Assembly (NCBI RefSeq): GCF_050947875.1
Contig: NC_134576.1
Span: forward strand, 53,506,255-53,570,254
DNA from: Dermacentor variabilis
Taxonomy: Eukaryota; Arthropoda; Arachnida; Ixodida; Ixodidae
Length of the DNA: 64,000 bases
Direction of reading: 5' to 3'
Every line of letters starts with the position of its first letter. The stretch's first letter is position 1. Made by a program: the position numbers and the translations under genes. Shown here in pieces: positions 2,142 through 56,293 of this stretch. A model generated the notes under the pieces. It was not told where the DNA came from. It saw only the letters and a list, made by a program, of their open reading frames with translations, and made no database searches.

Positions 2142-2156
2142 CTTCGGGGCTCCAGT
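2142..2156 (-). other. Micro-exon, 15 nt (T-G-A-P-K)
   Basis: Minus-strand block ACTGGAGCCCCGAAG. Acceptor is ...CTCCCTTTCCAG and donor is GTGAGCAGC. It is the last block visible before the window edge in the direction of transcription. Both splice sites are intact. Confidence 0.6.
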
Positions 2157-5100
2157 CTGGAAAGGGAGCGGAAAGCAGTTGACAAAGAAGAAATTTATTA
2201 TACACATACTGTTACAGAAGAACTTCACTTTGACCTAGTTGGTATTTACTCCATATCATATTGACCGCAAATAAAGACGGGGACAGAGGGAGAGAACACA
2301 TAAACAGCACGGGCGGTAACTTTCTACTGTTTTATTCACAGCAGCCTGTGGGCATATTCAGGCAAATAGAAAATGCGCAGATCGCAGCAAACAAGAATAC
2401 ACATCAGCTTAGCATGGTAACCAATTATCAAAAAAATCTATTTCCGATTAAAACAACATAATGGAGGTATGGCTAACACAGTCTTGGCCTTTCTTTTTTA
2501 TGTGATAAGCCGCCATCAGTTCACGGGCAGTCTGGTCATGGCTTCTCCCCAGAATCTTTGTCTGCTCAAAAAGAGGTGCACAGCGACAGGCATTGCAGTG
2601 CGCAGGTAAGTGCGCCAATTCATCTTTCGTTAACTTTTGTTCATGTTTCCTGGCTCGATCATTCAGGCACCGTCCAGTCTGCCCTATGTAGGACTTGCCA
2701 CACGCCAGGGGGATTTCGTACACAACTCCTACATTGCTTTTTGCATACGGCTTGGTGTGGTTCTTGCCACAACCTTGCCTTCCTTTAGGATCACGGGAGG
2801 TGCGGGGGCAGAGCCGCGCCAGCTTAAAAGGGGCTGAAAAGACATGGGGGACTCCAAACCTGCCTGCCAGCGTCCTTAGGTTGTGAGCGACCCTGTGAAT
2901 ATACGGCACCACTTCTGGTCTTACGGCCATAGTAGTCGTCCTCACCCTTGCTCTGCCCCTAGATCCTTTTACCTTCTGCAGGGGGCCTGCAGGGGTACTG
3001 CTCTGCAAAGCGATCTCAGCTCGCCACACGTGCTTCCATCGACCTGCGGTGGTGGCGCCATTCAGAGAACCAGCGCGTACGACAGCGCTGACCGACCATG
3101 AACTCCCTTCAGAGAACTGGAGACTACGGCAGCAGGGCTGGCCACGTTTGGCGCCCGGTGTATTGTTGCTTGATTTGCCGGGTCTGCATGGTCTCCCTGC
3201 AGCTTCTCTAACAAAAGGGTGCTTTGCGGTACGATTTCTCTACGTCTCTGGTATTTAGAGACGCAAGAAAGACAATGGACAACCGGCGGCCACACGGCGG
3301 GGGTAAGCTTGGGGAATAAGAGGCGCCTCCTTTGGCTCAAGAAGTAAGCCCCGAGTTCTGCGAAGCCCGCCTGGCCTCGGTGGGGGCAGTGAAAGCTTTT
3401 CGTACGTGCGTGTGTGAGCCCTCCTCCTCCGAAAAGGCGGGTCGGCTATGATGACTCGAACGTTTCCCTCACCTAGTGATCTAGGGAGCACGAAGTGTTT
3501 ATAAGCGGCTGTTTGTCCGCTGCTAAGTGTGCTCGTCTGTGTGCTAGTCATCGTGCTCGTGAGCTGTGTGCTCGAGCTCGTATGTTGCATGCTTCGTCTT
3601 GCGTGCTCCATTTGGGAGTCACGCTAGACCGTTGAATGTATCTATTGTTTAAAATGTAAATACTGTAAATAAACCCTGTAGGCTTAGTTCTTCCCAAGTT
3701 CCTCTTTACGACCTCCAACCCCTTCAACTGGTGGCAGCCGCGAGATCGTCCGACAACTCCGACAATACCTAGTGTGATATTTCTTGCCTGGACTAAAATT
3801 ATTCAAAACCACGCTTGATTTCCTCAGGAAAATAGTACTTTGAAAAAATTGTAAGGCTTCTAAAATGACCCCGCACATCAGTAGCGCTTTGTATGCGATC
3901 TCTCGATGATATTTCAGTCTAGTCTTTGCGACACACATCCTATCGGTAACCACATTGAGTAAATAAATACGTAATTATGCATTGTCTACAATAAGTATTC
4001 CTGAAGAAAAAGTTTGTCATGGAACACGCGTTTACAAAGAAATAGCCAGATTTTTTACTTTTAACCTAAAAGTTCGCTGCTTTTAAATTTCTTCAGATAA
4101 TATTTCGACGATACAATGCAGGCAGTAAAAATCATAAAAAACGCCAATAATGACAATCCATATATTTCATACTTAAGATGGACTCACACTTGAAGGCACC
4201 CTTTGAATTGCATGTTTTTATTGGTAAACTGTTTTGTTTTGGAATTGTGCTGCTGTCATCTAACAGCCGCAAGATGCCAGATTTTCGCATTAAAGGCTCA
4301 GTTGTAGTTCTTCTGCGTGAAAATATATTGAGCGTAAGTATCTGTACGCTTATGCGTTCACAGATGTAGTTTTTTGGATCAGAACGTTCCCTTTCACTGA
4401 TACAGATGTTGCAAAGAGTTGGTAAGATCGTTAACTGACACAATAAGAATATTAAAACTTTAAACTTCTCTTGAAGTACTTTCAGATCTAATATAAAAGA
4501 AAGGTACCCAAATAAAATTAACCCATCTGGTACCTAAAAGTTATATGCTACATTACTGTCCTGTATCAACAATCAAATTCCTTTCTTTACTCATAGAGTC
4601 GCAAATACAAAGACAAAGCTTGGACAAGGATGGAAACAAGCGTTAGCGGATAGAATTAGCAAATTAGTAGATCTGCTGCGTACCAGTGGAATCTCCGTCT
4701 GAAAAAGGAGCACAAAGCAGTTATTAAGCAACAAGATTGTTATACACGTACGAACTCCATTACTTCTGGCTTGGAGTGAGATTACTTAGGCGTAACAACG
4801 ACGCTTGAGTTTATCAGGCAAATAGCAATTTGAGGGTTCTAGTACAACCGCACACAACAGAAGCGCCTGGAAAATGATCTTTCGATTTCATTTTAGTGAT
4901 CTAAACAAAAAATTGTGGGGGAACTGTGGTCAACTGACTCCCAAGTGGAGTCAAGATTCCGTATCGAAACGCGTCGGCTACAAACGCGTGCTTTCAGCAA
5001 CCATGCTGTGAGTGTAACTAAATATGCGCAGTTATGCATTCCTTTCGATTAAGGTTTCTGAAGAAAATTTTTTTGTTTACTGCCGACGCTTCTACAAACA

Positions 5101-8100
5101 AATCGCCATATTCTCGACTCACCACGATAACAGTTCCACTTTTCAATTCCTACAGATACTCTAAATAAATGAAAAGGAAATGGCTAATGAAGTCATTCAG
5201 CTACTCTAAATAAATGAAAAGGAAATGGCTAATGAAGTCATTCGAGGTATCTGATACTTAAAATGGATGGTCACTTCAAGGTACCCTTTGAATTGGATGC
5301 TTTGGGTGTTAAACTGTTTCGTCGTTAAATCATGTGGCCGTTATCTCACTGCTGCATGTTTTTGCATTGAATGTCTTCGATAATGTACAGGTCTTCTGCG
5401 TAACAATATGTTGAGTGCAACTTACTGCGCGCTTATGCATTAACAGCCAGTAAGTTTTTGTGGATCACAACGTTCACTATAACCAAGCTAACTTTGCAAG
5501 AGGTTGGTATGTTCGGCGATTGACACGATAACAATAATTTCTTTTATATTCCTCAAGAACAATTTCACCAATGTAATAAAAGAAGAGGAGAAAATTCAGC
5601 TAATGTGGTATTTAATAATATGATGCAATAACACTCTACAGACAACTGAATTCCTCCATAACGCACAGCATAGGAAATACAAACCACCACACGAAAAGAG
5701 ACGACAACGGAAGCATAATTGGAGATCAAATTGAAGTTCTCGAGTGAGTAAATGTGCTCTTACATTTCCCGCTAATGTCAAGAAAAGAAATGTTTGGGAG
5801 TTGGGAAGGACCAATTTATACACATACGCCCTGCCATCCTCCTGACTTGCAGTACGTTTATCAAAATTGTAAAACGAACCTAGAGTTTATCGGCTAAATT
5901 ACCCTTTAGGGCAATTGTGAGGCTTATATTACCGTCCCGCACATCAGAAACACTTGCTACACGATACCTCGTTTGCATTTCTGGTATTTAAAACATAAAA
6001 ATTATGAGGAGTTTCTCTATAGAAAGGCGTTGTTCGACACGTGCTGTCAGTAACCACACTGAATGTAACTAAATGCGCAGAGTGGCGTCCATATAGACTA
6101 TGTCTTTTCTTTTTTTTTTTCTTGCTGAGTGTAACATTTTTTGTTGTTACAGATCATTTTACAATGAAATTGGCACATTTTTGATAAGTGACCATAAATG
6201 TTCTCAACTATTCTAATTCTTGCACTGAAAGCAGTCAACAATAATATTATCAATGATTACGATACCGCGTAATGCGTAATTTGAGCGCAACTCTATACGT
6301 GTTTTTATTTCACAATATATTGAGGCATAGAATGTGAGTGAAACGTGTAGCACAGTCGGCAATCGTAAAAAATATGATCTACGGGTAAAGCGCGTCGTCT
6401 GTTATACAAAATTTGTCGAAGGTTCCCATGTAGGTTCCAGAAAGTATTACAAAGTTCGCATCGTGCATACAACCAGAGTGCAAAACAATCTTGAACCAGG
6501 ACAATAAAAACAAGCGCGAACGAGACCAACCCAACGAAACCAAGCAAGCGCGAGCTGATGGGAGAAGTCAATAGTACGAAACTAGAGGCCCGGCTGAGTA
6601 CTGGTATCCAACATTCGGGCGTGTCCGCATGAAGCCACTTTCCCGCGCGCACGTCGCTGAAGGAGCAGCACTCATTGGTGCCCGCTGTTCGGCGCTCGCA
6701 TCTTCTTTCATATGCCGCTTTGCGTTTGCTCCTTCACCCCTCGCTGTTCGGCTCGTTCACTCGGTTACGCGGAGGCCAACGCACGCCGCAGGAACAGGCG
6801 CCTAAGAGCTGCTCCCTACAAAACCGCCAACCAGGCAATACGATATATTTTATATATAAACTGGACCGCCACGTACAGGCAGCCTTTGAATCGCAGGCGT
6901 TCGTTGTTAAACTGTGTTGTTTTGAAATCGTGCTGTTGTCCTTTAACAGCCGTAAGAAGCTATATTTTCTTTTTGCAACGGAATGCTACGACAACGCACT
7001 GGTCTTCTGCGTAGCAACTGTGCGCTGAAGCAACAACACACGGTACATTTTTGTGAATCAGGGGCCCTATAACGTGAAACTATTTCAATCTGTTGTCAAT
7101 CCAATTTGCTGACGTCAAATTGACGTCGACATCCCAATACAAGGAACGGGAAGTAACCCGCATCTATGTTCAAGAAGTCCTGCCAAACGCGCTGCTCGTT
7201 TGTAGGACGTCACTTTTTTTTTTTGCTTTCAAAGCAAATAGCATTGCCTACATTCAGCGGTTTTGAATACGAAGCATTTCTTGGCGAAAATTCGCCACTT
7301 TGACACTGTCTAATACCCAGCTGCCCTCGTCCTGACGCTATCATGGTCGTCTCCTTAGCTTCGTATGGAACAAAATTGGCATAGCATGACAAGAGTCTAT
7401 GGCGAACATAAACGATAGGTTCTAACGTGAATGTCATGACAAGCGGGTCATGTAGGTCATAAAACAACCGCCTACGTTTTGGTGCTTTCATGGTCTTTTT
7501 GTTAACTTTGCTTGTACCAAAATTGGCATAGTATGACAAGAGTGTGTGACGAACATAATTGATAGGTCATGACATGAAAGTGGGAGGCAACGCACCAAGG
7601 CAAACCAGTAGGTAAGCTCCCCAAAAAAGGGAATGACCTAATGAAGAAATGAGGAAGAATGGAATAGTTGGACTCAAGAAATGAGATGGGATTCGCAGAA
7701 TTGTCAAAACTGATAAGCAAGGAGACTCACGACGCAGTAATAAATGGACGCTGCATGAAATCAGTCAGAAGGAAAGTTGCCAGAGGACAAGCCAAGATGC
7801 ATGCACTGAAAGACAAGCAGGGTGGTATCAGAAATCTTGAAAATATCGTAAAAGCAGCTGAATAATTCTATATTGACTTATACACTACCCCGAGCAGCCA
7901 GGACACTACTATTGAAAGCAGTAATGAACAGGTTACAGAGGCGCTTTCTATAACTTCCGATGAAGTCATCAGAGCCTTCGACGACAGGAAACGGGGAAAA
8001 GCGCCAGGTGAAGATGGAATAACATTCCATTTATTCAAAAATGAAGGAGATATAATGCTTGGAAAACTGGTGGCTCTTTATGCAAAGTGTCTATCAACTT

Positions 8101-10747
8101 CAGGGCTCACAGACAAGTGGAAAAATGCCAACATTGTATTTGTCCACCAAAAGAGACAAAGATTTCACAAATCATAGGCCCATTAGCTTACTTCCAGTAT
8201 TATATAAAATATTCACCAAGATAATCTCCAATAGAGTAAGGGCAAGGCGACTGCAGTCAACCAAGGGCTGGCTTCAAGAAGGGATACGGTACAATGGGTC
8301 ATATCTATGTAATCAGGTAATCGAGAAATATGCAGAGTACAACATGCCGCTCTACATGGCTTAGATAGATTACGGAAATGCATTTGATGCAGTGGAGAGA
8401 CCAGCAGTGATAGAGGCATTACGTTATAAAAAGGTACAGGAAGCTTACGTAAATATCTTGGAAAATATCTACAGAGATTCCATAACTACCGTTATTCTCC
8501 ACAAGTAGGAAGATATCTATAAAGAAAGGGGTCAGAAGAGGAGACACAATCTCCCCAATGGTAATCACTGCGTGCTTGGAAGAAGTATCCAAGCTGTTAA
8601 CCTGGGAAGGTTTAGCATTAAGGATCGACGACGAATACCTCAGCAGCCTTTGGTTCGCCGATGACATTGTTCTATTCAGCAACACTGCGGACGAGTTAAA
8701 ACAAATGATTGAGGACCTTAACAGGACGACTGTAAGAGTGGGGCTCAAGATTAATATGCAGAAGACAAAGTTAATGATAAATAAACTTGCAAGGGAACAA
8801 GAGTTCAAGATCGCAAGTCAGCCTCTATAGCCTGGAGGGGTACGTTTACCTAGGTCAACTGATCACAGGGAACCCTGTCTATCAGAAGGAAATTCTGATA
8901 TACTAGTGCTCTGCATCGATAACTAAATTCCTTTCTTTACACATAGCATAGCAAGTAGAACGGAACACTTGGAAACTGATGGAAACGGAAGTTCTTGCAG
9001 ATGGAATTTAGGATAGCTAATAAATACATTGCTGCTTAACATCTCAATCCCGCTCTGAAAAAGGAAAGCGAAGCAGTTTAGAAGCAACGAGGTTATTATA
9101 CACATATGGACTGCATTATTTCTTGCTTTCACTGAGATTATTGAAGCGATAAAACGATGTTTTTGTTTATCAGGCAAATAGCAGTTTAAGGAGTCCTGAG
9201 GCTTCTAATACAACTGTTCACGTCGCAATCACCTAGAAAACGATCTCTCGATTACATTTCAGTGATCTAAACAAAAATCCTCAGTGAGCTGTCGTCAAAT
9301 GACCCCTAGAAGGAGTTAAGTTCCCGTATCAAAAGGCGTTGCTGGCAGAAACTTGCTCTGGACAACCACGCTGTGAGTGCCACTGAATGGGCAGTTATGC
9401 TTTCCTCTCGAGTAATTTTTTCGAAGATAAATGTTTTTCTTTACAACAGACGCTTTTACAAAGAAATAGCCAGATTCTCAACTAACCGCAATAACAGTTC
9501 TCGACTTTCCAAATTCCTCAGATATTTCAACAATGTCATACAATGCCGGTAGTCAAAATAAATGAAAACGCTAATCACGTCATTTGAGGTATTTATTATT
9601 TAAAATGGACTGACGCTTCGACGTACCCTTTCAATTGCATGCTTTTGTTGTTACACTATTTTGTTGTGAAATTGCGTTGCAGTCATCTCAAAGCCGCAAG
9701 ATGCGAAGTTTTCGCACTAAAGGGTTCTGATGACGTATGGCCCTCTGCTTAACAATATATTGAGCGTAAATAAATGCGCGCTTGTGCATTAACACAAAGT
9801 ACGTTTTCGTAAATCAGGACGTTCTCTTTTATGGATGGCGATCTTGCATAGCGTTGGCAAGGTCGGTGTTTGACATAACGACATAACACATTTAGAACTC
9901 TTTAAGAGTACTTTCAGAAATGTTGTAACGGAATGGTGCTCTAATGAATTAGCTAATCTGGTACTTAATAATTATATAATTAGAGCATTATTACTTAATA
10001 TAACGTCAATCCTCCGTAACTCTTGTCGCAGCAAGTACGACGACGCATTTGTGAACGTATGAAAACGGAAGCATTGCAGATGGAATAAGAAGGCTAATCG
10101 GTACAACTGCTGCTTACCTTCGCCTGCGTCATCTGAAAAAGGAACACAAAGGAGTTGAAAAGAAACAATTGATACAAACACGTACTGTGACATTTCTGAC
10201 TTGGAATCTGCTTACGAGAGTGTTAAAACGACGCTTGAGTTTATCGGATAAATTGCACTTTAGGACAATCGTGAGGATTATAATACGGCCCCGCACATTA
10301 GAAGCACTTAGTATGCCACCTCTAGATTACATTTCAGTGATATAAACTTAAAGATGACCACGCAAATTTGTTAAGTTATTGTAAAGGGTCTGTATAAAAA
10401 GGCGTCGTTGCCACACACTTCCTATCGGTAACCACACTTTCAGTGTAAATAACTGCGGAGTAATGCGTTCCTCTAGAGTAAGTTCTTCTGGAGAAAGCTT
10501 TTTTCATCGAACACCCGTTTGCAAAGACTAGCCAAATTCTTTACTCTCCGCGGTAAAGTAATAAAAAAGCAATACAGAACAGGCATTCAAAATAGTTCAA
10601 AACAATAATCATGTCAATCGAGATATTTCATATTGTTACGGAAGGTCGAATGAAGAGAGGAAGATGATCGCGAGACGTTGACTGCTGCGGGTTGGCGGTC
10701 AGTCATCTTGTCTACGTTGACTCATCCTATATATATATATCTATATA

Positions 10748-10807
<60 letters not shown>

Positions 10808-32479: not shown

Positions 32480-32514
<35 letters not shown>

Positions 32515-47500: not shown

Positions 47501-50231
47501 CAAGCACACCTACAAAACTCCACCAGTTTGTTTCTGGGAGGTCTGCATCTGTTTGCAATCACCGTTTTCGGCTTGCCGCGCTTATGTGGCGATATCCTGA
47601 TTATTTGATTTTACACTGATCGTCGAGTCTTTGGTATTCGCCTAATTTACAGTCTTCCTCAGCAGCTGCGGTCGTCTTCGGGATGGACCTGTCCACAGGC
47701 GGCACATTACGAGCTGCACACGCCTCCTCCGTTGGGTCCTGCAGCCCGCACGCGCGGTATAGGGATAAGTCCAGTTGAGGACACACGTCCGCTCTGTGGG
47801 CGACACTGCAGCAGGTTCGTCCCACCTGAGTTGCATTAAGGTACGGATGGCAGGTCTTCTCTAAACCGTAGTATTATTCGTATCTTGGTATGAAGTATTC
47901 GAAAAAAAGTAATCATTGCACTTTCGGAGTTGCCGAGCATTCGGGCTTTCACCACCTCCACTCCGTGGGTACCGATTTGGAGGTATGACTTTAAACCTGG
48001 GGGTGATGTGGATAGTTCCATTCATAGTACGACGCCGCGTACTGCCCATTCTACGGTCGTTACGTACGCATTAACGTGATGCGGTCGTCATTAAAGTTCA
48101 GCGTTTTGATGTTCTGCATCATCCGAGCCATCTTGTGATTCTCCGGTGTTGATACAGCGGCAATGTTCGATTTTGGTTTGATACACAGGATGAAAATTTT
48201 CTCTTTGTATTCGGTTTTGGCATGCCTCACACAACGGCGCGGGACCGCCATTGGCTGCTGATGCTCTTAAGGGGTAAGGCGTAATGCAGGCCGATAACCA
48301 CTTTCAGATCTTCCCGCGCAGCCGTAGTAAGGTGCCTCTTGCGTGGTCGGCGTCGTTGTTTGCTGTTTATCAGTTAAGTGAGACAAGGCATCTCTTCGCG
48401 GCGCATTTGGGCGCTCCTTAGCCTGCCGTTTCTTCTCGCGCAATGACAGGACTTTCTTGCATCCCGTTTACATCTCGGTATCATACAGCGCAACTGAACA
48501 ACCGCCGCCTTCCGAGGAAGCCGGCACATCGCTCGGCAGCGGTCAGCGTGCGAGTGGCATAAGGGTGGGATAAATGAATATTTTCATCGCCTCGTGGCCG
48601 TCGTGGAACGTCTTGAGCCGAGGTGGATGCTCCCGCCACACCGGACCAATCCGTCGATGCCATTGTTTAGGCCAAAGCCGCCGCGGTCGAGCGCGCGTTC
48701 GCCGGCGTCGCCGCCGCCACCCTACTTGTCATTAGGGTTAGCGGGCCACCACGTGATCCAGGCGGTATCTCGGCCGGAAGTCCCGAACAAATGTTGAGTC
48801 TCCGAAATTTTTGTGTCGCCGGAGAGTGGAGCGCTTCGCGTACCGGGTAACATTGGCTTGCAGGTGGTAGCGAGCGATGGTCTCACCGAAAAACGTCGAA
48901 ACACGTGCAGCTCAATGTTAGCGCTTTCGCTATGCTCGTTGCCCCCTAGCGTCTTCCACAGGTATGCAAACTATTGATGAATATTACACAGGGGCTAAGC
49001 GCAAATCTATTCAGTTCTCCATTAGCCTAATATCAAAAAGAGCGAGTTTTAGGTAGAGAAAGGTGTTAACGTACACGTGCTATGGGTACCACAGGTTCTA
49101 TTCCAGGTGCATCACAATTATGCGCTCCATTAGAACTTCTACTTAGACGCTGTCTGGCTCTACCTCCCATGGGTCTGTCGCGTCCCTATGCAAAAACTCA
49201 ACGGGAACCGCGCGTCACGTGGGCCGCTCGGTTCCTTGCAGCACCACCAGATGTCGCTTGCTTTCCCGCCTACGTGGCGGCGCTGGCCGTGCGGGGGAAC
49301 GATAAAAATTAGAAAGCGCGCCTTCGCCATACCCATCGTCGCTAGCGTTTGCTGGTAAAGATTACGGTTGCATAAGCTGCAGTTGCCGGGAAGTGTCAAC
49401 TGTAGCACGCGCAGCGGGCTTTGGCGTAATGACATTTTCGCATGTAAAACAACAACCCGCCTATCAGATGATTTGTGTTGTGACAGTGCTATGGAAACTT
49501 AGTGAGGATTCCTGGGGAACAGCGTGCACACGCGACACGGTGAAAGTGTCGCTAAGTGCATTTCTCTTTTCCCTGGCCCACCCTTTGTGGGTGCACGAAG
49601 TAGCAGCGCAAGCAAAGTCGTAGCCGTTGAAACGCCTTAGGCTAATAATTAGGTAAAGTGCATGTGAACGTGCCAATGTGAATTTGAAGCTACGTCACAA
49701 TGGGTAATCGTTCTGGTTGTTTACAGTTTTGCGCTCCCACTACCTTCACAGGGTTGGTTGGAGACCAGTTTATTTTGTGGAGCGGCACATTTTGCTTTGT
49801 TAAGAACGCTTATAGAAAGACTGGCTAGCTGTGGGATGATGGCGAACCCAACAGTTACCCTTTCTAATCCTTCAGAAAATCACAATAACATAAGACAACG
49901 CAGGCGTATAAGGATAACTTCCGCTACTGCTTTATCTGATTAGAGTTACCTGATCTATTAGTTTAGAGCTTTGAATAGAAGCAACGTTTTCTTAAAAATT
50001 TTAAACGCAGAAAATGGTGCAGCATATCGAAACGGAAATGCTGAAGATCTCGTGCTTACCATGAGGCCGAAAAACATGGCTGAAAAAATATCGGAAAGCA
50101 ATTTTCAAACAAAGGTACATCATAAACATGCACAATGCGGTATCTTGACAACTAAGAACATTTCGACAAGCACAACATTTGGACATGTAGGCGCTGCAGA
50201 TCAATTCGATAGTGGGGTACTTACGTGGCAT
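2142..50231 (-). CDS. Putative secreted micro-exon gene (partial)
   Basis: Proposed spliced gene built almost entirely of micro-exons. Reading on the minus strand from 50231 to 2142, the blocks are 7, 20, five of 9, then eleven of 15 (one 18) nt. Nearly all have a pyrimidine tract ending in AG and a GTAAG/GTGAG/GTACG donor. The 9/15/18-nt blocks are phase-symmetric and share the only stop-free phase; the other two phases meet TAA/TGA or TGA. The 7-nt block is ATGCCAC. Joined to the 20-nt block it stays in frame and runs into a hydrophobic stretch spread over five 9-nt exons, which reads as a signal peptide. The mature part would be short T-x-x-x-K-like pentapeptides. Four exons have damaged splice sites, but symmetric exons can be skipped without a frameshift. 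The 3' end lies beyond position 1. The product is unrecognised. Alternative: a dead relic, or conserved intronic elements of another kind. Confidence 0.6.
2214..3029 (-). pseudogene. Penelope-like element, GIY-YIG endonuclease end
   Basis: A 193-residue frame (2448-3029) holds a GIY-YIG nuclease at about residues 101-185: G-V-V-Y-E-I-P-L, then Y-I-G-Q-T-G-R-C-L-N-D-R, and a downstream E-L-M-A-A-Y helix carrying the conserved Glu. A C-x-C-type cluster (R-Q-G-C-G-K) precedes it, as in Penelope-like retroelements, where the GIY-YIG domain follows the reverse transcriptase and nicks the target. No reverse transcriptase is recognisable upstream, so the copy is 5'-truncated. The 3' untranslated part continues to about 2214, where the array unit is interrupted; the unit resumes near 3772. 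Confidence 0.8.
3250..3771 (+). repeat. LTR-like sequence inside the Penelope insertion
   Basis: Contains a TATA-like GTTTATAAGCGG near 3497 and a polyadenylation signal AATAAA near 3669. It then has TTCAACTGGTGGCAGCCGCG (3725-3744), which looks like an LTR end followed by a primer-binding region. The left edge is not clear. The array unit resumes at about 3772 (TGTGATATTTCTTGCC). Confidence 0.5.
4684..4698 (-). other. Micro-exon, 15 nt (T-E-I-P-L)
   Basis: Minus-strand block ACGGAGATTCCACTG. Acceptor ...GTGCTCCTTTTTCAG, donor GTACGCAGC. Both sites are usable. Confidence 0.6.
5157..5246. repeat. 45-bp perfect tandem duplication
   Basis: The segment starting TACTCTAAATAAATGAAAAG occurs at 5157 and again at 5202 without visible change. 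It is a recent local duplication inside an array unit. Confidence 0.9.
5764..5778 (-). other. Degenerate micro-exon, 15 nt (T-L-A-G-N)
   Basis: Aligned to other units, the block is ACATTAGCGGGAAAT with donor GTAAGAGCAC. The acceptor position reads TTG where other units have CAG. An alternative AG inside the block (CATTAG) would give 8 nt and break the frame. It is probably inactive. Confidence 0.4.
6300..6855 (-). repeat. Probable solo LTR of a gypsy element
   Basis: Positions 6340-6460 resemble the LTR at 16855-16950 and 22900-23030: CACAGTCGGCAATC, then a TGATC...CGGGT...GCGC block, then GTCGAAGGTTCCC and a TTCCAGA-like string. The sequence interrupts the array unit, which returns at about 6860. 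Exact ends and target duplication could not be fixed. No coding sequence is present. Confidence 0.45.
6938..8896 (+). pseudogene. RTE-type LINE copy 1 plus upstream repeat, truncated
   Basis: Positions 7583-8896 encode fragments of an RTE-clade reverse transcriptase: G-E-D-G-I-T-F-H, N-H-R-P-I-S-L-L-P-V, and the catalytic box W-F-A-D-D-I-V-L-F at about 8652. The frame is broken, including TAG at 8362-8364 where copy 3 has TTC. The endonuclease part is missing, and the 3' end stops abruptly at 8896 where array sequence resumes. Positions 7080-7610 are a different repeat, with two sub-units about 150 bp apart (AAATTGGCATAG near 7372 and 7522). The whole 6938-8896 segment recurs at 13777-15735 with a constant offset of 6,839 bp. 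Confidence 0.85.
9040..9054 (-). other. Micro-exon, 15 nt, donor shifted (S-G-I-E-M)
   Basis: Aligned block AGCGGGATTGAGATG with intact acceptor CTTTCCTTTTTCAG. The expected donor GTAAGC reads TTAAGC. The nearest GT lies one base earlier and would give a 14-nt exon and a frameshift. Likely skipped or dead. Confidence 0.4.
10118..10132 (-). other. Micro-exon, 15 nt (M-T-Q-A-K)
   Basis: Minus-strand block ATGACGCAGGCGAAG. Acceptor ...TGTTCCTTTTTCAG, donor GTAAGCAGC. Both sites are intact. Phase +1 would read TGA at its start, which argues for phase 0. Confidence 0.6.
10634..10843 (+). repeat. 5' LTR of gypsy element
   Basis: Begins TGTTACGGAAGG and ends CGTAACA, giving the terminal inverted repeat TGTTACG/CGTAACA. 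It is expanded relative to the 1490-1634 LTR by an (AT)n tract at about 10727-10802. It is followed at once by TATTGGTGGGAGGTGC, the expected primer-binding region; the tRNA was not identified. It is inserted right after TTTCATAT of the array unit. Confidence 0.85.
10919..12150 (+). pseudogene. gypsy Gag, frameshifted
   Basis: The frame opens with M-N-D-G-E-H-A-G, a Pro-rich stretch, and then capsid-like sequence (V-E-G-W-V-A-M-Y-E-R-M). A one-base slip in the A-run near 11208-11214 moves the frame to 11215-11697. After a TAA at 11695-11697 the same frame continues to a CCHC zinc knuckle, C-F-T-C-R-R-I-G-H-V-A-R-Y-C, at 11851-11892. It then runs through an Arg/Ser/Pro-rich tail with another stop at 12013. 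Gag packages element RNA in the cytoplasm; this copy is dead. Pol follows in a different frame. Confidence 0.85.
12151..13778 (+). pseudogene. gypsy protease and reverse transcriptase, truncated
   Basis: The protease active site is L-V-D-T-G-A-H near 12268, and after a frame change the flap end D-V-I-L-G-F-D-F-L is near 12465. The reverse transcriptase starts about 12860 (S-Y-S-D-I-F-D), has a stop at 13137-13139, continues S-P-V-V-L-V and D-V-Y-P-L-P-R-I-D-D-A, and loses frame near 13430. The catalytic Y-L-D-D-V-I-V-F-S box is at 13501-13527. It ends at S-Y-F-R-R-F-V (about 13776), where it is joined to sequence copied from 6938. RNase H, integrase and 3' LTR are absent. Confidence 0.88.
13777..16376 (+). 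pseudogene. RTE-type LINE copy 2 with longer 3' end
   Basis: Positions 13777-15735 repeat 6938-8896 and share the TAG (here 15201-15203). This copy keeps the catalytic W-F-A-D-D-I-V-L-F near 15491 and adds the LINE 3' part: an inverted segment at 15825-15957, then R-T-A-E-R-A-M-E-G-R and the C-terminal W-V-G-H-V-I-R-S module typical of RTE elements. It ends after GATGATGATGGTGATG at about 16370, a short-repeat 3' end. The coding frame is broken many times. Confidence 0.85.
15706..15957. repeat. Imperfect inverted duplication within LINE copy 2
   Basis: The left arm, about 15706-15799 (CCCTGACCATGAGAAGGAAA ... CTCGGATCCTTACTGGGAGC), is repeated in reverse complement at about 15866-15957 with several mismatches. 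The loop also contains reverse-complemented LINE sequence (GTAGAATGCACTGATTGTAC). A stretch of the 3' region, apparently from a diverged copy, was inserted backwards. Confidence 0.85.
16768..17863 (-). repeat. 3' LTR of minus-strand gypsy, interrupted
   Basis: Outer part 16768-17110 (plus strand starts TGACGGTCCAGAACACAGC) aligns with the 5' LTR at 22861-23249. The last bases, GCGTGTCA, are found at 17856-17863 after a nested insertion. The strand reading from 17863 downward begins TGACACGC, matching TGACACGT of the other LTR. Directly outside it, 17864-17880 is the minus-strand polypurine tract (AATTGGGGAGGGGGTTAA). Confidence 0.8.
17111..17855 (+). mobile_element. Nested solo LTR with 4-bp target duplication
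   Basis: A 745-bp LTR, TGTTAGGG...GCAACA, flanked on both sides by GCGT (17107-17110 and 17856-17859). Internal promoter-like features run on the plus strand: GGTATAAACAG near 17515 and AATAAA near 17671. It is a different LTR family from its host. Confidence 0.8.
17890..21300 (-). pseudogene. gypsy Pol, heavily mutated
   Basis: Domains run from right to left. The protease is V-D-T-G-A-D near 21250. The linker (D-L-K-S-I-T-L and P-P-E-N-S-R-S-H) spans 20765-21058. The reverse transcriptase start (D-D-I-I-Q-P-A-K-S, S-P-V-I-L-V-K-K) is at 20218-20406. Its catalytic box reads Y-C-D-H instead of Y-L-D-D (about 20022-20042). The connection to RNase H is at 19727-20044. The integrase zinc region is at 18778-19146. 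The integrase core at 18411-18860 still shows N-D-R-G-T-A-F-T-A and T-N-G-L-M-E-R-L-N-K. The C-terminal G-D-R-V-W-V module is at 17925-18299. Several frameshifts and stops separate these pieces, so no active protein is possible. Confidence 0.88.
18382..18437. repeat. Perfect 24-bp palindrome, 8-nt loop
   Basis: Arms 18382-18405 and 18414-18437 are exact reverse complements (TCTCTTGCACTGCAGTGCTG is the start of the left arm), with loop CGTCATCA. It lies in the integrase region, where it replaces expected coding sequence. Confidence 0.95.
21442..22850 (-). pseudogene. gypsy Gag, zinc knuckle damaged
   Basis: The Pro/Arg-rich end of Gag lies at 21665-21991. Its zinc knuckle reads W-Y-H-C-G-E-A-S-H-I-Y-R-R-C. 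The first Cys of the normal CCHC box is Trp, so metal binding is lost. Upstream Gag sequence (21991-22850) has no long frame. The start next to the 5' LTR, minus-strand ATCTGGTGGAGGTGC, is the primer-binding region. Confidence 0.75.
22861..23249 (-). repeat. 5' LTR of minus-strand gypsy
   Basis: About 389 bp, plus-strand TGACGGCCAAGAACACAGC to CACGTGTCA. It pairs with 16768-17863. The flanking array sequence (TATGATGTATTAG) overlaps what is left of the other flank by more than a normal target duplication. The insertion site was therefore later rearranged, or the flanks come from different array units. Confidence 0.8.
23397..23411 (-). other. Micro-exon, 15 nt (A-T-M-Q-K)
   Basis: Minus-strand block GCAACGATGCAAAAG. 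Acceptor ...GCGTTTCTTTTTCAG, donor GTAAGCAGC. Both sites are intact. Confidence 0.6.
24136..25834. mobile_element. TIR element carrying a minisatellite
   Basis: It interrupts an array unit. The ends are GCGATAGCAA (24136-24145) and TTGCTATCGC (25825-25834), a perfect 10-bp terminal inverted repeat. No transposase is visible inside, so it would be non-autonomous. Open frames of up to 209 codons across it are translations of the internal repeat, not genes. The element family was not identified. Confidence 0.6.
24330..25400. repeat. ~110-bp minisatellite, about 10 copies
   Basis: The core GGCTACAATGTTCGCCATGG recurs near 24354, 24464, 24570, 24680, 24790, 24900, 25011, 25155 and 25268, with a partial extra copy near 25045. 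The period is about 110 bp. Each copy holds a GC-rich G-tract (GGCGAGGGAGGGGGAAGTA) followed by CTCGGGGCGCAGGGC-like sequence. Confidence 0.9.
26132..26146 (-). other. Micro-exon, 15 nt, acceptor lost (L-N-I-P-L)
   Basis: Aligned block TTAAACATTCCCCTC with donor GTAAGCAAT. The acceptor position reads CAT instead of CAG, so splicing into it is not expected. The peptide resembles that of the 4684 exon. Confidence 0.4.
27148..27162 (-). other. Micro-exon, 15 nt (A-T-V-R-N)
   Basis: Minus-strand block GCTACTGTACGGAAT. Acceptor ...CCCTTCCTTTTTCAG, donor GTAAACAGC. Both sites are usable. Confidence 0.6.
28165..28182 (-). other. Micro-exon, 18 nt (T-N-V-T-T-A)
   Basis: Minus-strand block ACCAACGTTACAACAGCG. 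Acceptor ...CGTTCCCTTTTCAG, donor GTAAGTAGC. It is three bases longer than its neighbours, so the reading frame is kept. Confidence 0.6.
28880..29370. mobile_element. Insertion shared by two array units
   Basis: Begins AAGGCGAAGTCCTTAGGTGG and ends with a loosely inverted counterpart (GGCTTTCGCCTTCATCCTCC), so it may be a TIR element. No coding sequence. It contains the motif GTCGAACCCACGACC, which superficially resembles a tRNA B box. A shorter relative occupies the equivalent place at 30490-30690. Confidence 0.5.
29669..29683 (-). other. Micro-exon, 15 nt (T-N-V-G-K)
   Basis: Minus-strand block ACGAACGTTGGCAAG. Acceptor ...ACGCTCCTTTTTCAG, donor GTAAGCAGC. Both sites match the consensus of the array. 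Confidence 0.62.
30008..30480 (-). pseudogene. CR1-like LINE 3' end
   Basis: On the minus strand, S-L-F-F-P-R-T-I-E-L-G-N-S-L-P (about 30200-30255) is the terminal motif F-F-P-R-T-I-x-x-W-N-x-L-P of many LINE proteins, with Gly in place of Trp. A short 3' region follows, then an (AAAT)n-type tail (TTTATTTATTT on the plus strand, about 30008-30045). Only the last few hundred bases of the element were inserted. Confidence 0.7.
30490..30690. mobile_element. Second copy of the 28880 insertion, shortened
   Basis: Shares GGAAGTAACGCATTCAAATAA-like sequence and the end GCTTTCGCCTTCATCCTC ... GCTAA(A/G)GTGACT with 28880-29370. It sits at the same point of its array unit. Confidence 0.55.
31012..31026 (-). 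other. Micro-exon, 15 nt, donor shifted (T-T-A-H-K)
   Basis: Aligned block ACAACCGCACACAAG with intact acceptor ...GCGCTCCTTTTTCAG. The donor reads TTAAGC. A GT one base upstream would give 14 nt. Same change as in the 9040 exon. Confidence 0.42.
31665..31673 (-). other. Micro-exon, 9 nt (L-K-T)
   Basis: Minus-strand block TTGAAGACC. Acceptor ...TTTTTTTCATAAAAG, donor GTAAGTATG. Confidence 0.5.
31780..32514 (+). pseudogene. LINE 3' end with microsatellite tail
   Basis: The frame ending at 32055 finishes with Y-S-F-L-P-Q-S-S-K-D-W-N-N-L-P-A, the C-terminal motif of CR1/Jockey-like LINE proteins. A 3' untranslated part of about 420 bp follows and ends in (AATA)n at 32477-32514. The rest of the element is missing. 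Inserted between two micro-exon units. Confidence 0.7.
32603..32611 (-). other. Micro-exon, 9 nt (T-M-M)
   Basis: Minus-strand block ACGATGATG. Acceptor ...TTTATTTTCATACAAG, donor GTAAGTATG. Confidence 0.52.
33135..33143 (-). other. Micro-exon, 9 nt (V-I-A)
   Basis: Minus-strand block GTGATCGCG. Acceptor ...TTTCTTTCTCCACACAAG, donor GTAAGCACC. Confidence 0.52.
33327..33380. repeat. Two poly-C tracts
   Basis: Runs of 13-14 C separated by about 20 bp. Low complexity, no other function visible. Confidence 0.9.
33942..33950 (-). other. Micro-exon, 9 nt (L-M-I)
   Basis: Minus-strand block CTTATGATC. Acceptor ...CCTTTTTTGACACAAG, donor GTAAGTACG. Confidence 0.55.
34150..35150. other. No gene seen
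   Basis: Array similarity fades after about 34.1 kb. Short open frames here have no recognisable domain. Nothing else was identified. Confidence 0.5.
35156..36230. mobile_element. Fold-back element with ~120-bp inverted ends
   Basis: The left end AGGCACTATGGAGGACATTT is repeated inverted at the right end (reverse complement AGGCACTACGGAGGAGGTTT). Similarity continues for about 120 bp through CGCGTGTTGTATGCGTTTGT. A second, internal inverted repeat of about 47 bp (TCGGACAGACTTTCTCGCGC at 35879; mate ending near 36070) lies within. There is also a small 8-bp hairpin, CTGTCCGC-GATA-GCGGACAG, near 35592. No transposase is encoded, so it is a non-autonomous DNA element. Confidence 0.75.
36231..37130. 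other. No gene seen; GC palindrome and poly-G
   Basis: A GC-rich imperfect palindrome (GGGGGCTCCGGGGCCCGAGC) lies near 36251-36275 and a G-run at 36290-36301. The rest is unrecognised. Confidence 0.5.
37140..37480 (+). pseudogene. Degenerate mariner/Tc-type DDE transposase
   Basis: From 37155 the frame reads G-P-I-F-F-D-H-T-L-T-G-Q, then after a spacer W-Y-Q-Q-D-G-A-P-A-H (second catalytic Asp region) and an R-N-W-L-D motif. After a frame change W-P-A-R-P-P-D-L and D-F-F-L-R-G-Y-V-K-D-R appear, the third-residue region of mariner-like transposases. Such enzymes cut and paste DNA between TIRs. This copy lacks the N-terminal DNA-binding part and has at least two frame breaks. No TIRs were located. 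Confidence 0.72.
37500..39700. other. No gene seen
   Basis: AT-rich to moderate-GC sequence with a poly-T tract near 39267. Short frames lack recognisable domains. The frame at 37512-37853 has no match I can name. Confidence 0.5.
39716..40213. mobile_element. MITE with perfect 17-bp TIR
   Basis: Ends are TTAAAGGGACACTAAAG (39716-39732) and its exact reverse complement CTTTAGTGTCCCTTTAA (40197-40213). Length is 498 bp with no coding capacity. TTAA at both edges could be the target duplication or part of the TIR. Confidence 0.85.
40214..42100. other. No gene; fragment of start-module repeat
   Basis: Positions near 40900-40940 (AGTGGAGCGGAACATTTTGC) resemble the repeat at 49775 and 53450. No micro-exon block was found with it. 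Otherwise unrecognised. Confidence 0.45.
42110..42470. repeat. Two fragments of one dispersed repeat
   Basis: TTACAGCGAAGTTGTATACG (near 42115) and TTACAGCGAAGCTCTACATG (near 42356) are each followed by CGCT-GTCCGACCA and an A-CCCTCC-GCG string. A third relative starts near 56044. Non-coding. Confidence 0.6.
42471..43980. other. No gene seen
   Basis: No domain, repeat or RNA gene recognised. The array-like unit that contains the 44197 exon begins after about 43.95 kb. Confidence 0.45.
44197..44205 (-). other. Micro-exon, 9 nt (F-V-V)
   Basis: Minus-strand block TTCGTTGTG. Acceptor ...CTTTTTTGTGTGCAAG, donor GTAAGTAGA. Downstream landmarks (GCGAATACCACATCATGCAT) match the array unit, so it is the first of the 9-nt series. 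Confidence 0.55.
44400..47580 (-). pseudogene. I-group LINE ORF2 (RT, RNase H), dead
   Basis: The reverse transcriptase lies at 45700-46700: A-I-L-E-G-L-E-W-I-G-C-G-T-R-I-H-K and G-T-P-Q-G-S-M-L. The catalytic box is V-I-Y-A-D-N-I-M-L-W, in which the second Asp of Y-A-D-D is Asn. A RNase H domain follows (A-I-A-L-A-I region, about 44950-45130). The C-terminal zinc-like motif N-E-C-P-G-C-G-D-R-S-K-L-S-H is near 44610-44660. Frames are broken throughout. RT plus RNase H plus a Gag-like ORF1 upstream is the arrangement of I/Jockey/R1-type non-LTR retrotransposons. An endonuclease domain between 46.9 and 47.5 kb could not be confirmed. Confidence 0.8.
47590..48260 (-). pseudogene. I-group LINE ORF1 (Gag-like)
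   Basis: Upstream of ORF2 on the same strand, pieces such as K-S-N-I-A-A-V-S-T-P-E-N-H-K and G-T-I-H-I-T-P-R-F-K are followed by zinc-knuckle remnants (H-R-A-D-V-C-P-Q, Y-R-A-C-G-L-Q-D-P-T-E-E-A-C) at 47601-47825. This is the RNA-binding Gag-like protein of such LINEs, frameshifted here. An N-terminal extension to about 48663 is possible but unproven. Confidence 0.7.
50060..50079 (-). other. Micro-exon, 20 nt, start region (M-F-F-G-L-M)
   Basis: Minus-strand block CCATGTTTTTCGGCCTCATG. Acceptor ...GATATTTTTTCAG, donor GTAAGCACG. It contains an ATG at its third base. From there the frame is open and hydrophobic, and it ends in phase 0 for the 9-nt exons that follow. Confidence 0.6.
50225..50231 (-). 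other. Micro-exon, 7 nt, candidate start codon
   Basis: Minus-strand block ATGCCAC. Acceptor ...TTTTCTCCTTGCAG, donor GTAAGTACC, both near consensus. Together with the 20-nt exon it makes 27 nt, and its ATG is in frame with the downstream ATG. Confidence 0.55.
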
Positions 50232-50559
50232 CTGCAAGGAGAAAAGAATAGGAAGCAATGTGAGACAATGCATATTTGGTAAAACAACACATTTTTTTTA
50301 CATCTGGCTTCACTGGAATATTTGGAACAGCAAAACGGCTCTAAGTTCTTCCGGTGAAGTCTACTACGAAGTAACCGTAAGACACCTAATTCCACCAGGC
50401 TCATCGTAAACACCGGCTATCCCATCGCTCAGATACATTTCGGTTATAATAAGCGTAAAAAAAAGTCACCAACGATTACGATAGTCCTTAATTCTAATGC
50501 GCGTCTTGGGCGCAGCTGTTTAGGTGTTTCGAATCCGCGATATAGTGTGAACGCGATAT

Positions 50560-51080
50560 AGTCTATTCTGAACGGCAGCAACAGCGCTGAGCCTTTGGTC
50601 AAGCAGCTCGTTTAGCAGCAGCTGCAGACGAAGCATTTCCACAAGTTGCGTCACTCATTGATGTTTACGAAAACGAAGCGTGAACACGAAATGCGCAGCG
50701 CGCGCGGAGCGCATTTTCTAGCGGCGTGGGCGCAGGTGGGGGGCGCAGGCGTGGGCGCAGGCCCTCGCCACCGCTTTGCTTTTACAGCAATCCCCGCAAG
50801 ACTGGTCGCCGCCGTTGAGCATGCCTCGTGCAGCGTTCCGCTTTCGTCCCCGCCCTGTTCTCATACTATCCACCTGCGCTTTGCAGCTCATGCTTCCGCT
50901 CTACCCTCCTCCGCTACCCTTTCGCGCTCTCTTCGCTCTCGCCGTCTTTCATCTTCGGCTGCGCTGCGCGTTCTCTTTGATCTTTCGCTGTGCTCGTGCA
51001 TTCAGTCCCGAGTGACGCCGACCCTCAGCGCAGGAACGGGCGACTAAGTAGTAGTAGTAGCAGTTGTAGGAGAAGTAGTA
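50560..51080. repeat. GC-rich dispersed sequence, non-coding
   Basis: Composition jumps to high GC with CT-rich stretches (CGCTCTCTTCGCTCTCGCCG) and ends in (GTA)n near 51045-51075. The open frames here look compositional. Probably part of an unidentified repeat. Confidence 0.4.
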
Positions 51081-52320
51081 GCATTAGCAACCTTATTTAT
51101 CCTTTTAATGCGATAACGTTTGGGGCTTTGCGTACCCGGAAATCCGGCGTCCGGCGTCTGGCGTCGGACGTCTTTTCGTCTTTTCGACAAAAAGAATTTC
51201 GGACCACCCATACCTAGGCCCTCATGTGGCGCAAGGAAGTTACTGAACAAATTGAATTTCTTAAGCTAAATACTTAAAAAAACTGTAAAGTACGACACAC
51301 ACACATCCTAGGAGACATGATAGCGTTGTATTATAATTTGAATATACGCTAAAACATAATTATGTTATGCGAGAACTCAAACAAACCCTGTTTGCAGCAT
51401 TTCTACCATACATAAACTATACCGGGCGTCCACAATTTGCACGCGCCGGCACACGAAAGTCCTTGAAGAGCAGAATATAAAACTTAACGACGACACACAA
51501 GCAATTACGTGTTTTGACCTTCACGGCGCTTTTAATAGCGTACATCCATGCGTCATACTTATAGTTAAACCTATTTGTGATTGATCCATGCCTATAATAT
51601 TGTCGCGGTGTGTTTTTAGAGGAATACGGCAATGTAATCGTGGATCTTTTCACCGAACCCCACTAGGTTAAGCTCCCAAATTATGACGCACTGATCCACG
51701 TTATTAAAAACGCCGTGAAGGCCTAAGTGCAAAATTGCTTATGTGTCGTCAGTAGAATCGGGTGTCAAAAGGTCTGCTTCGAAGGAAGCATAGCGCCCTG
51801 GCACGATAGGGAGCGGCGGAATCCCATCATCTCTGGTGAGAAGAGATTTCCTCTATATATTTATTGAGGTGGTTGAGAATGACGTATACGAGTTTTACCA
51901 ATGCATTAGGTGAGCGAGATTGGTCTGAGGTTGGATGAGTTAACGGGTTTGTGTGTTTTAAATGTAAGGATAACTCTGGCAACCTATGACAAGGATGGAA
52001 GGATGCCAGTGTTGAAGCAGTGGCAGTGATATGTACTGAATGCCTTCACATAATTATTGTCCAGGTTACGGACAATTTTGCTATTCGGGGCCAGGAGGGG
52101 AGGTCATGCCGAGGTAACCGGGGCGCGGGGCATCTCTGTTTTTGTGATTGGTGTGCGGATTGGGTACGCCGATGTATGTGGGAGTGGAGAAACCGCATGA
52201 AGGGGAAGGTGCCTTTGTTGAAGTTCGGCGAAGACTTCCTTTAAGTTGTCTTTTTGAGAACGGGTGCCTAGACCTTCCCTCTAAATTCGGAGGAGAGTCT
52301 CTTCCACATTAGTGCCGAAA
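51080..52320. other. No gene seen
   Basis: No recognisable domain or splice-bounded block. Confidence 0.45.
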
Positions 52321-52329
52321 ATAGCCATC

Positions 52330-53220
52330 TTTCTGTAGAGAAAAGCACCCCCAAATTTTTTTGGCTCCAAGATGGGCGGCTGGCATAGCTGACAATATAA
52401 TTCTTTATGCGGAAACACCGTTCTCCCCGCCTCCTGATAACCCTCTTTCTAAAGGAGGGCGCACCGATGAAATAACATGCTCTGTACAGCAGAAAGAAAG
52501 TTTTCCGCATTTTCATATCGTTTCATATCGCTTTCATAGTTCGAATCCAGCAAGGACTGCGGGAACACTTTTTTCATTGTTGCAAAATGCCTTAATGGAA
52601 AGATGGGACCCAGATACAAAGCTGCCAAGACGATGAGTGGCAACCCCCTACTTGAAATCCGCGGAATACAAAATGGAAAACTTGAACCTTGTGACATTCG
52701 GTGATGTCGCAATCGTGGTTACTCCACACCCCTCCATGGGTACAGTCCAAGAAGCCATACAAGACGATGATATTCCAGCAGAACTTTTTGTTAGGTTAGT
52801 TGGTGCATATTACTGAAATACTATAGCACCAAACAGACGACACAAGAAGAAGAGACACGGACGAGCGCTTGTCCGTGTCTCTTCTTCTTGTGTCGTCTGT
52901 TTGGCGCTATAGTACTTCAGTAAGACGATGATGTCCGAAACTTACGGAAGAAAAGCTTCTCGAGGTATGGAGCGACAAGCTCGTTATCAAAGTTCAAAGA
53001 TAGAGATCAAACGTGAGAAAAATAAAAACTGACAAAACACCTGATTCTAACCTTTGCATCGAGTACTACGCCAGAGTCCCTCCATACAGGCTACACACAG
53101 ACGGATACTAGTATACATCCTGAACCTGCTTGAATTTTTTAAGTGCCAAATAGTCAGCAACGCCTCGCAAAGCTGTCCAGGTACACTAACCTGTAGAAAC
53201 ATGCGGCACCCAATGTGAGC
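52330..53220 (+). pseudogene. LINE Gag-like ORF1 fragment, copy A
   Basis: Recognisable pieces in shifting frames are K-A-A-K-T-M-S-G-N-P-L-L-E-I, G-T-V-Q-E-A-I-Q-D-D-D, and after the palindrome T-K-H-L-I-L-T-F-A-S-S-T-T-P-E-S. These match the N-terminal part of Gag-like proteins of Jockey-type LINEs (the ...LILTFASSTLPES... segment precedes the zinc knuckles). It is interrupted at 52764-52934 by a palindromic insertion. A related copy lies at 54640, 2,330 bp to the right. Confidence 0.65.
52810..52923. repeat. 114-bp near-perfect palindrome
   Basis: Positions pair as i and 105733-i. By eye 54 of 57 pairs match. The core is GACACGGACGAGCGCTTGTC with no real loop. It is part of an insertion of roughly 160 bp bounded by the 11-bp direct repeat AAGACGATGAT (near 52762 and 52922). 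Confidence 0.9.
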
Positions 53221-53716
53221 GCGTTCGTTATGCTCGGCGCCCCCTATCGTTCTCCCATAGCATGCTAACTTTTGATAAAAAAATAGAGAAACTAAGCGCA
53301 CATCGTTTCAGCGTCCTCCATAACCCTAACGCCGAAAAGAGACAGTATTATGTATGGAAAGGCGTCAACGTTCACGTGTTGTGGGTACACACATTTTTGT
53401 GCAACCAATGCCACAAGTATGCGTTCCGCTAGAGTAACTTTTTACGGAAGGGAACATTTTGCTTTATGAAAGAGGCTGTTAAAGACCGGCTAGCTGCTGG
53501 AACGGTGCCGATCCATGTGCTAACTCTTTCCAATGCTTCACACAATCATAATAATCTATGACAATCCAGACTATAAGCATTTTCGTTACTGTGTAATCTA
53601 TTTAGTTATCTGTATTATAGGGGCTGTGCTCTGAAGAGGCAGAATGTTTCCTTAATGCGTGAAACAGAAAACGACGCAGCAAATGGAAAAAGAAACGCTG
53701 AAGATCTGGTGCTTAC

Positions 53717-53736
53717 CATGTTGTCGGGAAGCATGG
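53717..53736 (-). other. Micro-exon, 20 nt (M-L-P-D-N-M)
   Basis: Minus-strand block CCATGCTTCCCGACAACATG. Acceptor ...CCCTTTTTTTTTTCAG, donor GTAAGCACC. Same length and same ATG positions as the 50060 exon, but polar rather than hydrophobic. Confidence 0.5.
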
Positions 53737-54360
53737 CTGAAAAAAAAAAGGGAAGTACTCATGAAACAAGAGTTATATCATAAACATACATACTGTGATA
53801 TTTGTGCTTTAGACTATATGTCATGTACGGGTAAATGCAGCGTTTTAGTGGAACAGCATTTTAGGCCTATTGTGAACCTTCTAATCTCATCTCGCACATC
53901 TGAAACACCTGGTGTGCCACTTCACGATCCCGTCTCAGATATTAAGCGTCTGAAATTCATGGGCAAGCTCCCTGAACTTACTGCACGAAGAAACAGCTTT
54001 ACGTAAAGACACTGTTAACGTACACGTATTCTTAATAGTGATATTTCGATTGTAACGGCGGATGCAATTCTGTGAGGCTGAAAATTTTAAACGACGCTTT
54101 TACGAAGAATCGTAAGATGTGTACGACGTTGTTGGCCGGCGATAATGATAATACGTTTTCGAATATTTCAGAAACTATTTCTCAGGAAATACAGGTGCCT
54201 ATAAAAGTTGGCTAATTCTTCATTAACAGTAATGTTATTTGAGTTGTGTAGTATACAGGTATGTTAATTTAGCCGAAATTGATTACGGCGCCACACTTCG
54301 GCATGTAAGCAGTGTATATCGATTCGTTAGCAGAGAATGAGCAGTGTGGTACTACTTGCT

Positions 54361-54367
54361 TGGGTTC
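54361..54367 (-). other. Micro-exon, 7 nt, GC donor
   Basis: Minus-strand block AACCCAA. Acceptor ...CTTTCCTCGTGCAG, donor GCAAGTAGT, a GC-AG intron start. Where copy 1 has ATG this copy has AAC. Confidence 0.45.
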
Positions 54368-54520
54368 TGCACGAGGAAAGAAGGGAAAGCAGTGTGAAAC
54401 AACGCATCTGTGATATAAACAACTAATTCTATCATTTCTGGCTTGAAACATTAAAACGACACGTACTTGTTAACATAAAGCCTAATTCGATGAGCTCGTC
54501 AAACATCAAATTCCCATGCG

Positions 54521-56191: not shown

Positions 56192-56293
<102 letters not shown>

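Follow-up and report, generated by a model that had tools for sequence, protein, structure and literature searches.

Can a protein be encoded in exons of 7-33 nucleotides (nt) scattered over tens of kilobases of a tick genome? The question is raised by a 64,000-nt stretch of Dermacentor variabilis DNA (contig NC_134576.1, C9:53,506,255-53,570,254; hereafter "the window"), in which an earlier note had described 20 minute blocks on the minus strand, nearly always inside copies of one repeat unit, and had read them as the exons of a micro-exon gene. Our follow-up of this proposal points the same way. With a probability that we put at roughly 70%, the blocks are exons of a minus-strand micro-exon gene, whose predicted exons, all of 7-33 nt, would extend over at least 60 kb and be spliced into one small, likely secreted peptide.

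A one-stranded array of repeat units

The repeat unit was searched for with an nhmmer profile (model length 537) seeded with five units and run for four rounds. It gave 25 matches in the window, 25 on the minus strand and 0 on the plus strand; 20 of them reach a block, the other five being partial copies without one. In the 264 kb surrounding the window all 33 matches were again on the minus strand, and the array extends below the window to end near G000:C9:53,495,600, about 10.6 kb beyond its edge. The 20 blocks were all found where they had been reported, from 54366 down to 2142 (Table 1). The reported order of sizes (7/20, followed by five 9-nt blocks and eleven blocks of 15/18 nt) holds, except that the first block measures 11 nt and not 7: along the minus strand the blocks have 11, 20, 7 and 20 nt, then five times 9 nt, then 15 or 18 nt in eleven cases. 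The first block is probably a decayed copy of the 7-nt exon. Spacing is fairly regular in part of the array, where four of the ten intervals between successive D blocks fall between 1,001 and 1,065 nt; elsewhere gaps between blocks reach 13 kb, and consecutive 9-nt blocks lie up to 10 kb apart.

Two further observations concern the units themselves. The D7-D8 segment has a recent duplicate at G000:C9:53,500,978-53,502,580, below the window, in which the 15 nt of D12 are identical to D7, while D13 repeats the broken D8 and has a changed acceptor as well. By eye, the acceptor AG of the C2-C5 units (31665-34129) lies about 6 nt further in than that of the 15-nt units (CATACAAG versus CAGAC...), a shift by which 15-nt exons could have been shortened to 9 nt or 9-nt exons lengthened to 15 nt.

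Splice signals at the block borders

At the position homologous among units, an AG precedes and a GT follows the block in 15 of the 20 cases. The claim that every block lies between an acceptor and a donor is correct for these 15 and fails for D1 and D8 (donor), D5 and D9 (acceptor) and the first block (displaced GT). Both D1 and D8 have TT in place of the donor GT, and use of a GT one base earlier would make a block of 14 nt; in D9, an AG inside the block would make one of 8 nt. The window was also scanned for splice-bounded blocks, defined as 13 pyrimidines out of 17, HAG, 6-24 nt and GTRAG. The minus strand gave 17 matches, 12 of which are listed blocks, and the plus strand gave 2; the mean over 60 dinucleotide shuffles was 2.6 (standard deviation 1.7, maximum 8). 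This excess over both the opposite strand and the shuffles indicates that the array is not a product of chance. Further splice-bounded blocks of 9 and 10 nt occur on the minus strand at 30556 and 34761, outside recognised units; given the match rate in the shuffles, they may be fortuitous.

Reading frame and predicted product

When the splice-intact blocks are joined, frame 0 is open and frame 1 contains stops. Across the splice-intact C (9-nt) and D (15- or 18-nt) blocks, stops in frame 0 amount to 0/61 codons in the window cluster (locus 1) and 1/57 in a second cluster described below (locus 2); the counts for frame 1 in splice-intact blocks are 6/47 and 2/46, respectively. CC-ATG is present in all three copies of the 20-nt block (two in the window, one in locus 2), and only 6-9 of the 15 positions that follow it are alike. 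The 9-nt blocks encode mostly hydrophobic residues (FVV, LMI, VIA, TMM and LKT), with a hydropathy that random 9-mers matched in 0.05% of 50,000 sets and 9-mers bounded by AG and GT in 0.12% of sets. Mean hydropathy over 15 residues is 2.2-3.0 for segments starting at residues 1-10 and falls below 0 from residue 19 on, so that the N-terminal frame-0 stretch looks like a signal peptide. Behind the hydrophobic blocks come cassettes of 5-6 residues of the type T-x-[VIA]-x-K, and the predicted product is rich in threonine. Among 17 splice-intact 15-nt blocks from the two loci, two of which are identical, T is first in 12, V, I, A, L or M third in 14 and K, R or N last in 12. The G+C content is 0.52-0.55 in exons versus 0.38 in flanks.

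Lengths that are multiples of three (9, 15 or 18 nt) characterize the five 9-nt and nine splice-intact D predicted exons of locus 1, as well as 11 of the 12 splice-intact blocks of locus 2, the last having 19 nt. The predicted exons without such symmetry are those of 7 and 20 nt, which sum to 27, and E1 (19 nt), one of the exons predicted below the window. Predicted C and D exons are in phase 0, and E2 is in phase 1. The gene might be organized as follows. The 20-nt exon would carry the start codon and the five 9-nt exons the hydrophobic core of the signal peptide; the tandem array of intron-exon-intron units of about 1 kb would supply the pentapeptide cassettes, and a Pro/Ala-rich tail would come from the 19-nt and 33-nt exons, perhaps with one of 21 nt, below the window. 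Since splice-intact C and D exons in locus 1 have lengths divisible by three, gain, loss or skipping of units would leave the frame unchanged, and duplication, decay and alternative splicing could vary the length and sequence of the product.

An inverted second locus

A search of the 2.48-Gb genome with one D unit gave at least 18 matches (such counts being lower bounds), of which 6 lie in the window cluster on the minus strand and 12 at 51.147-51.314 Mb on the plus strand, with none elsewhere among the matches. Locus 2 is thus an inverted paralogous cluster on the same contig, 2.2 Mb from the window cluster. In the parts of it that were fetched, 17 C- or D-type blocks are recognisable, 12 of them with both splice sites, and D8 and D9, broken in the window, are both splice-intact there. 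Units share one orientation within each cluster, the sole exception being an inverted piece of 50 nt in locus 2. Colinearity between the two loci persists below the array for about 20 kb, though it is interrupted in places. The genome search with C2-C4, for which 40 of 326 candidates were scored, was swamped by a short element at 33366-33576 of the window, probably a short interspersed nuclear element, whose numerous copies occur on both strands of many contigs.

Substitutions between and within the loci

Blocks of the two loci were paired by their flanks only and not by block sequence. Seven of the eight reciprocal pairs were used, D11-p13 being left out for unequal length, and a flank-best set comprised 12 of the 14 listed locus-2 blocks (p9 and p13 left out); blocks in L014, L017 and L004, together with D15, were left out of all pair tests. 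The ratio of nonsynonymous to synonymous substitution rates (dN/dS) of the reciprocal pairs was 0.34 in frame 0, compared with 0.75 and 0.89 in the other frames; for the flank-best pairs the values were 0.39 versus 0.98 and 1.43. Third positions accounted for 16 of 34 changes (P 0.03) in the reciprocal and 32 of 71 (P 0.004) in the flank-best set, as assessed by column shuffling. Values of 0.46 versus 1.28 and 0.93 came from all pairwise comparisons among 16 splice-intact 15-mers, pairs that are not independent of one another. The numbers are small, but the signal is of the coding type, specific to the very frame that starts with ATG.

Within the array, D blocks are only 38% alike versus 61-62% for their flanks. 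The block was the less similar part in 44 of 45 pairs (10 of the 11 D blocks, the 18-nt D3 being left out), and only 1 of 361 flank windows, at a ragged end of the alignment, was as low. Between loci the picture is less uniform: ten flank-paired D exons are identical at 104/153 positions versus 2395/3173 (0.755) in flanks, and are below their flanks in 5 of 10 pairs. Among the exons predicted below the window, whose length and splice sites are kept in both loci in the case of E1 and E2, E2 is 45% identical between loci amid local flanks with 85% identity; no comparison window among 2,126 was as low. It shows the strongest identity dip among 540 AG/GT pairs, many of which overlap; E3 ranks ninth. 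E2 therefore looks diversified. E1 is 53% identical, a level reached by 63 of 2,168 windows. Positive selection on all exons is unsupported, D exons being below their flanks in only half of the pairs and E1 not being very unusual; as to the D exons, no more can be read from the data than rapid change under constraint on the frame. The high variability that the earlier note ascribes to schistosome micro-exon proteins has its counterpart in the exons compared within the array and in E2; the paired D exons have a dN/dS below 1 and fall below their flanks in only half of the pairs.

Table 1. Blocks, predicted exons and repeat array. Positions refer to the window unless preceded by C9.
Feature	Position	Strand	Length (nt)	Residues	Splice sites and remarks
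Unit array in window	1879..54652	minus			25 unit matches
A7	54356..54366	minus	11		first block; length counted to nearest GT; donor degenerate
A20	53717..53736	minus	20	MLPDNM	CC-ATG...; AG/GT intact
B7	50225..50231	minus	7		ATGCCAC; AG/GT intact
B20	50060..50079	minus	20	MFFGLM	predicted start exon; CC-ATG...; intact
C1	44197..44205	minus	9	FVV	predicted exon; intact
C2	33942..33950	minus	9	LMI	predicted exon; intact
C3	33135..33143	minus	9	VIA	predicted exon; intact
C4	32603..32611	minus	9	TMM	predicted exon; intact
C5	31665..31673	minus	9	LKT	predicted exon; intact; weakest unit match (E 1e-4)
D1	31012..31026	minus	15		donor GT replaced by TT
D2	29669..29683	minus	15	TNVGK	predicted exon; intact
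D3	28165..28182	minus	18	TNVTTA	predicted exon; intact
D4	27148..27162	minus	15	ATVRN	predicted exon; AG and GT kept; donor GTAAAC
D5	26132..26146	minus	15		acceptor AG lost (CAT)
D6	23397..23411	minus	15	ATMQK	predicted exon; intact; unit apparently split by insertion
D7	10118..10132	minus	15	MTQAK	predicted exon; intact
D8	9040..9054	minus	15		donor GT replaced by TT; copy in paralogous locus intact
D9	5764..5778	minus	15		acceptor AG lost (TTG); copy in paralogous locus intact
D10	4684..4698	minus	15	TEIPL	predicted exon; AG and GT kept; donor GTACG
D11	2142..2156	minus	15	TGAPK	predicted exon; intact; donor GTGAG
E1	C9:53,495,606-53,495,588	minus	19		predicted exon; length and splice sites kept in both loci
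E2	C9:53,494,762-53,494,730	minus	33		predicted exon; length and splice sites kept in both loci
E3	C9:53,478,157-53,478,137	minus	21		tentative exon; donor GTTAGT

Other elements in and near the array

The D6 unit appears to be split between 16632 and 23189: its left part ends at 23189 and its right part resumes at 16759, with similar sequence resembling long terminal repeats near both edges and pol-like reading frames at 17925-19004 (by eye; no Pfam match). Possibly a Ty3-type element has inserted here, inside an intron. One Ty3 pol reading frame of the window has its nearest named relatives in the ticks Ixodes scapularis (62%) and Rhipicephalus microplus (60%), those from spiders and a pseudoscorpion being lower. 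A reverse transcriptase reading frame (Pfam RVT_1) lies at 45703-46266, between B20 and C1. Another insertion, at 2448-3765, may lie between the D11 block and the left portion of its unit (3918-3765); no Pfam match was obtained for the reading frame 2448-3239. Between D5 and D6, a GC-rich minisatellite occupies 24313-25323; its period of about 111 nt is a multiple of three, which accounts for the long stop-free minus-strand frames that run through it, and the one frame tested had no Pfam match. Upstream of the array are two perfect microsatellites, AAT x33 (56193-56291) and TGA x27 (58732-58814).

Weighing the alternatives

Several facts weigh against a functional micro-exon gene. Splice sites are lost or displaced in 5 of the 20 blocks of the window and in 5 of the 17 from those portions of locus 2 that were fetched; there, one splice-intact block also contains an in-frame TAA and another has 19 nt. 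Of the five 9-nt blocks, C3 alone was detected in locus 2, in a copy that has neither splice site, and a genome search with C2 matched only C2 itself. Frame 2 of the splice-intact blocks is free of stops as well (0/47 codons in locus 1 and 0/46 in locus 2), and frame 2 of their join and one frame of its other strand are likewise open, so that the open frame alone is weak evidence. Few sites underlie the substitution tests, and a block with a broken splice site occurs in three of the seven reciprocal pairs. We identified no terminal exon or promoter, nor any convincing long conserved terminal open reading frame in the region common to both loci. A word-based search with the spliced models of 60 and 94 residues found no related protein; as it needs shared words of 5 residues, distant homology may be missed.

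Much of this would also be seen if the locus were the relic of a former micro-exon gene that is now decaying and makes no protein, and the mobile-element reading frames and insertions in the introns, like the damaged blocks, the TAA, the 19-nt block and the missing terminal exon, fit such a fate. A relic is nevertheless distinctly unlikely in our judgement: AG and GT are kept in three quarters of the window blocks, the intact C and D exons of locus 1 keep their lengths of 9, 15 or 18 nt, and dN/dS in frame 0 is below 1 and clearly below that of the other frames. Partial decay would, moreover, be expected in a live gene as well, because the loss of symmetric exons keeps the frame. If the gene is live, the D array might serve as a set of alternatives, each messenger RNA using one or few cassettes as mutually exclusive exons instead of all of them in series. 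We consider this rather unlikely. The cassettes do vary a single pattern and share phase 0-0 and similar flanks, but RNAalifold predicted 0 conserved pairs in 10 aligned units and hence no docking-selector structure was seen. Schistosome and aphid analogues, for their part, mostly string their exons in series, with exon skipping reported for the former.

A dispersed transposon or satellite carrying splice-like motifs by chance would explain why the units are repeats and why some of them recur at intervals of about 1 kb. It would not explain the single orientation within each cluster, the frame-specific substitutions or the order of block sizes and ATG along the array; the genome matches of one unit, at least 18, all fall in two clusters of one contig, which is not the behaviour of a dispersed element, and we hold this explanation to be very improbable. 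No more credit is due to a host gene for non-coding RNA, of which the introns would matter and the exons would not, as in host genes of small nucleolar RNAs. The codon-position signal in the blocks speaks against it, even though conservation is higher in flanks than in blocks, both within the array and around E2; Rfam gave 0 matches at the gathering score in 124 kb, which, with the lack of conserved pairs in the aligned units, leaves a structured RNA unsupported. A micro-exon gene in a tick, analogous to those of schistosomes as the earlier note had suggested, is by comparison favoured by the uniformity of strand, the excess of splice-bounded blocks, the frame with its ATG and hydrophobic start, the coding-type substitutions, the G+C content of the exons and the absence of dispersed-repeat behaviour.

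Comparison with known micro-exon systems

Schistosome micro-exon genes (MEGs) are described as having symmetric exons of at most 36 bp, the majority of 15 bp, a signal peptide and micro-exons duplicated down to 9 bp (PMC8293314, PMC10526429, PMC4015677). Their introns are given there as 0.1-5 kb, with duplication of exons and genes, a duplicated 9-bp micro-exon in MEG-3.1 and enriched transposon insertions (PMC8293314, PMC10526429, PMC4015677, PMC5825161, PMC4350168); exon skipping is reported as well (PMC4015677). The tick locus resembles MEGs in its small symmetric predicted exons, predicted signal peptide, duplicated units and long introns. It differs in that even the core of the predicted signal peptide is cut into 9-nt exons, and in that its array consists of recognisable tandem units with gaps of many kilobases between blocks. 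The word-based protein search, which would miss distant relations, revealed no sequence relation to MEGs. It is best read as an analogue of MEGs with an independent origin, and we do not assign it to the schistosome family.

Aphids offer two further parallels. Pea aphid KQY1a is described as having 37 exons, 33 of at most 15 bp, over 45.7 kb, and KQY/KHI genes as combining a signal region with divergent cassettes and introns of up to about 10 kb, KQY being expressed in salivary glands (PMC7495047). The tick locus shares with the KQY/KHI genes, as so described, a large gene for a small secreted product, the latter predicted in our case; aphid signal peptides are, however, conserved across the family, whereas the tick 20-nt exon varies after CC-ATG. 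Word-based protein searches, the sole sequence comparison made, gave no match between the tick model and KQY/KHI proteins. Aphid bicycle genes, fast-evolving genes for putative effectors, are portrayed as having many unusually small internal exons, almost all in phase 2 (PMC9168663). Many small internal exons of one phase are likewise predicted in the tick, but C and D exons are in phase 0 and the tail in phase 1, which sets the locus apart from bicycle genes as characterized there. Open-access literature returned schistosome, aphid and unrelated papers and, among those listed, no description of tick micro-exons, most subscription papers lying outside this search.

Tentatively, and at somewhat less than even odds, we propose that ticks evolved micro-exon genes independently, a further origin after those in blood flukes and aphids. 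Such a locus would grow by tandem cassettes of about 1 kb, assemble a secreted peptide, signal included, from exons of 3 to 6 codons and be copied whole in inverted orientation; at least one exon would change faster than its own introns, and exon turnover and skipping would together act as a generator of diversity at the host interface. Delivery to the host in saliva is, by analogy, a guess. Should the prediction hold, a class of tick genes may have escaped gene finders, for which exons of 7-20 nt are difficult targets. The locus also raises the question of how splicing could recognise five consecutive 9-nt exons so far apart. If splicing follows the prediction, this unusual gene design would have arisen independently in three groups that feed on hosts by means of secretions (blood flukes, aphids and ticks), and micro-exons would suggest themselves as a repeatable route to fast-changing secreted peptides.

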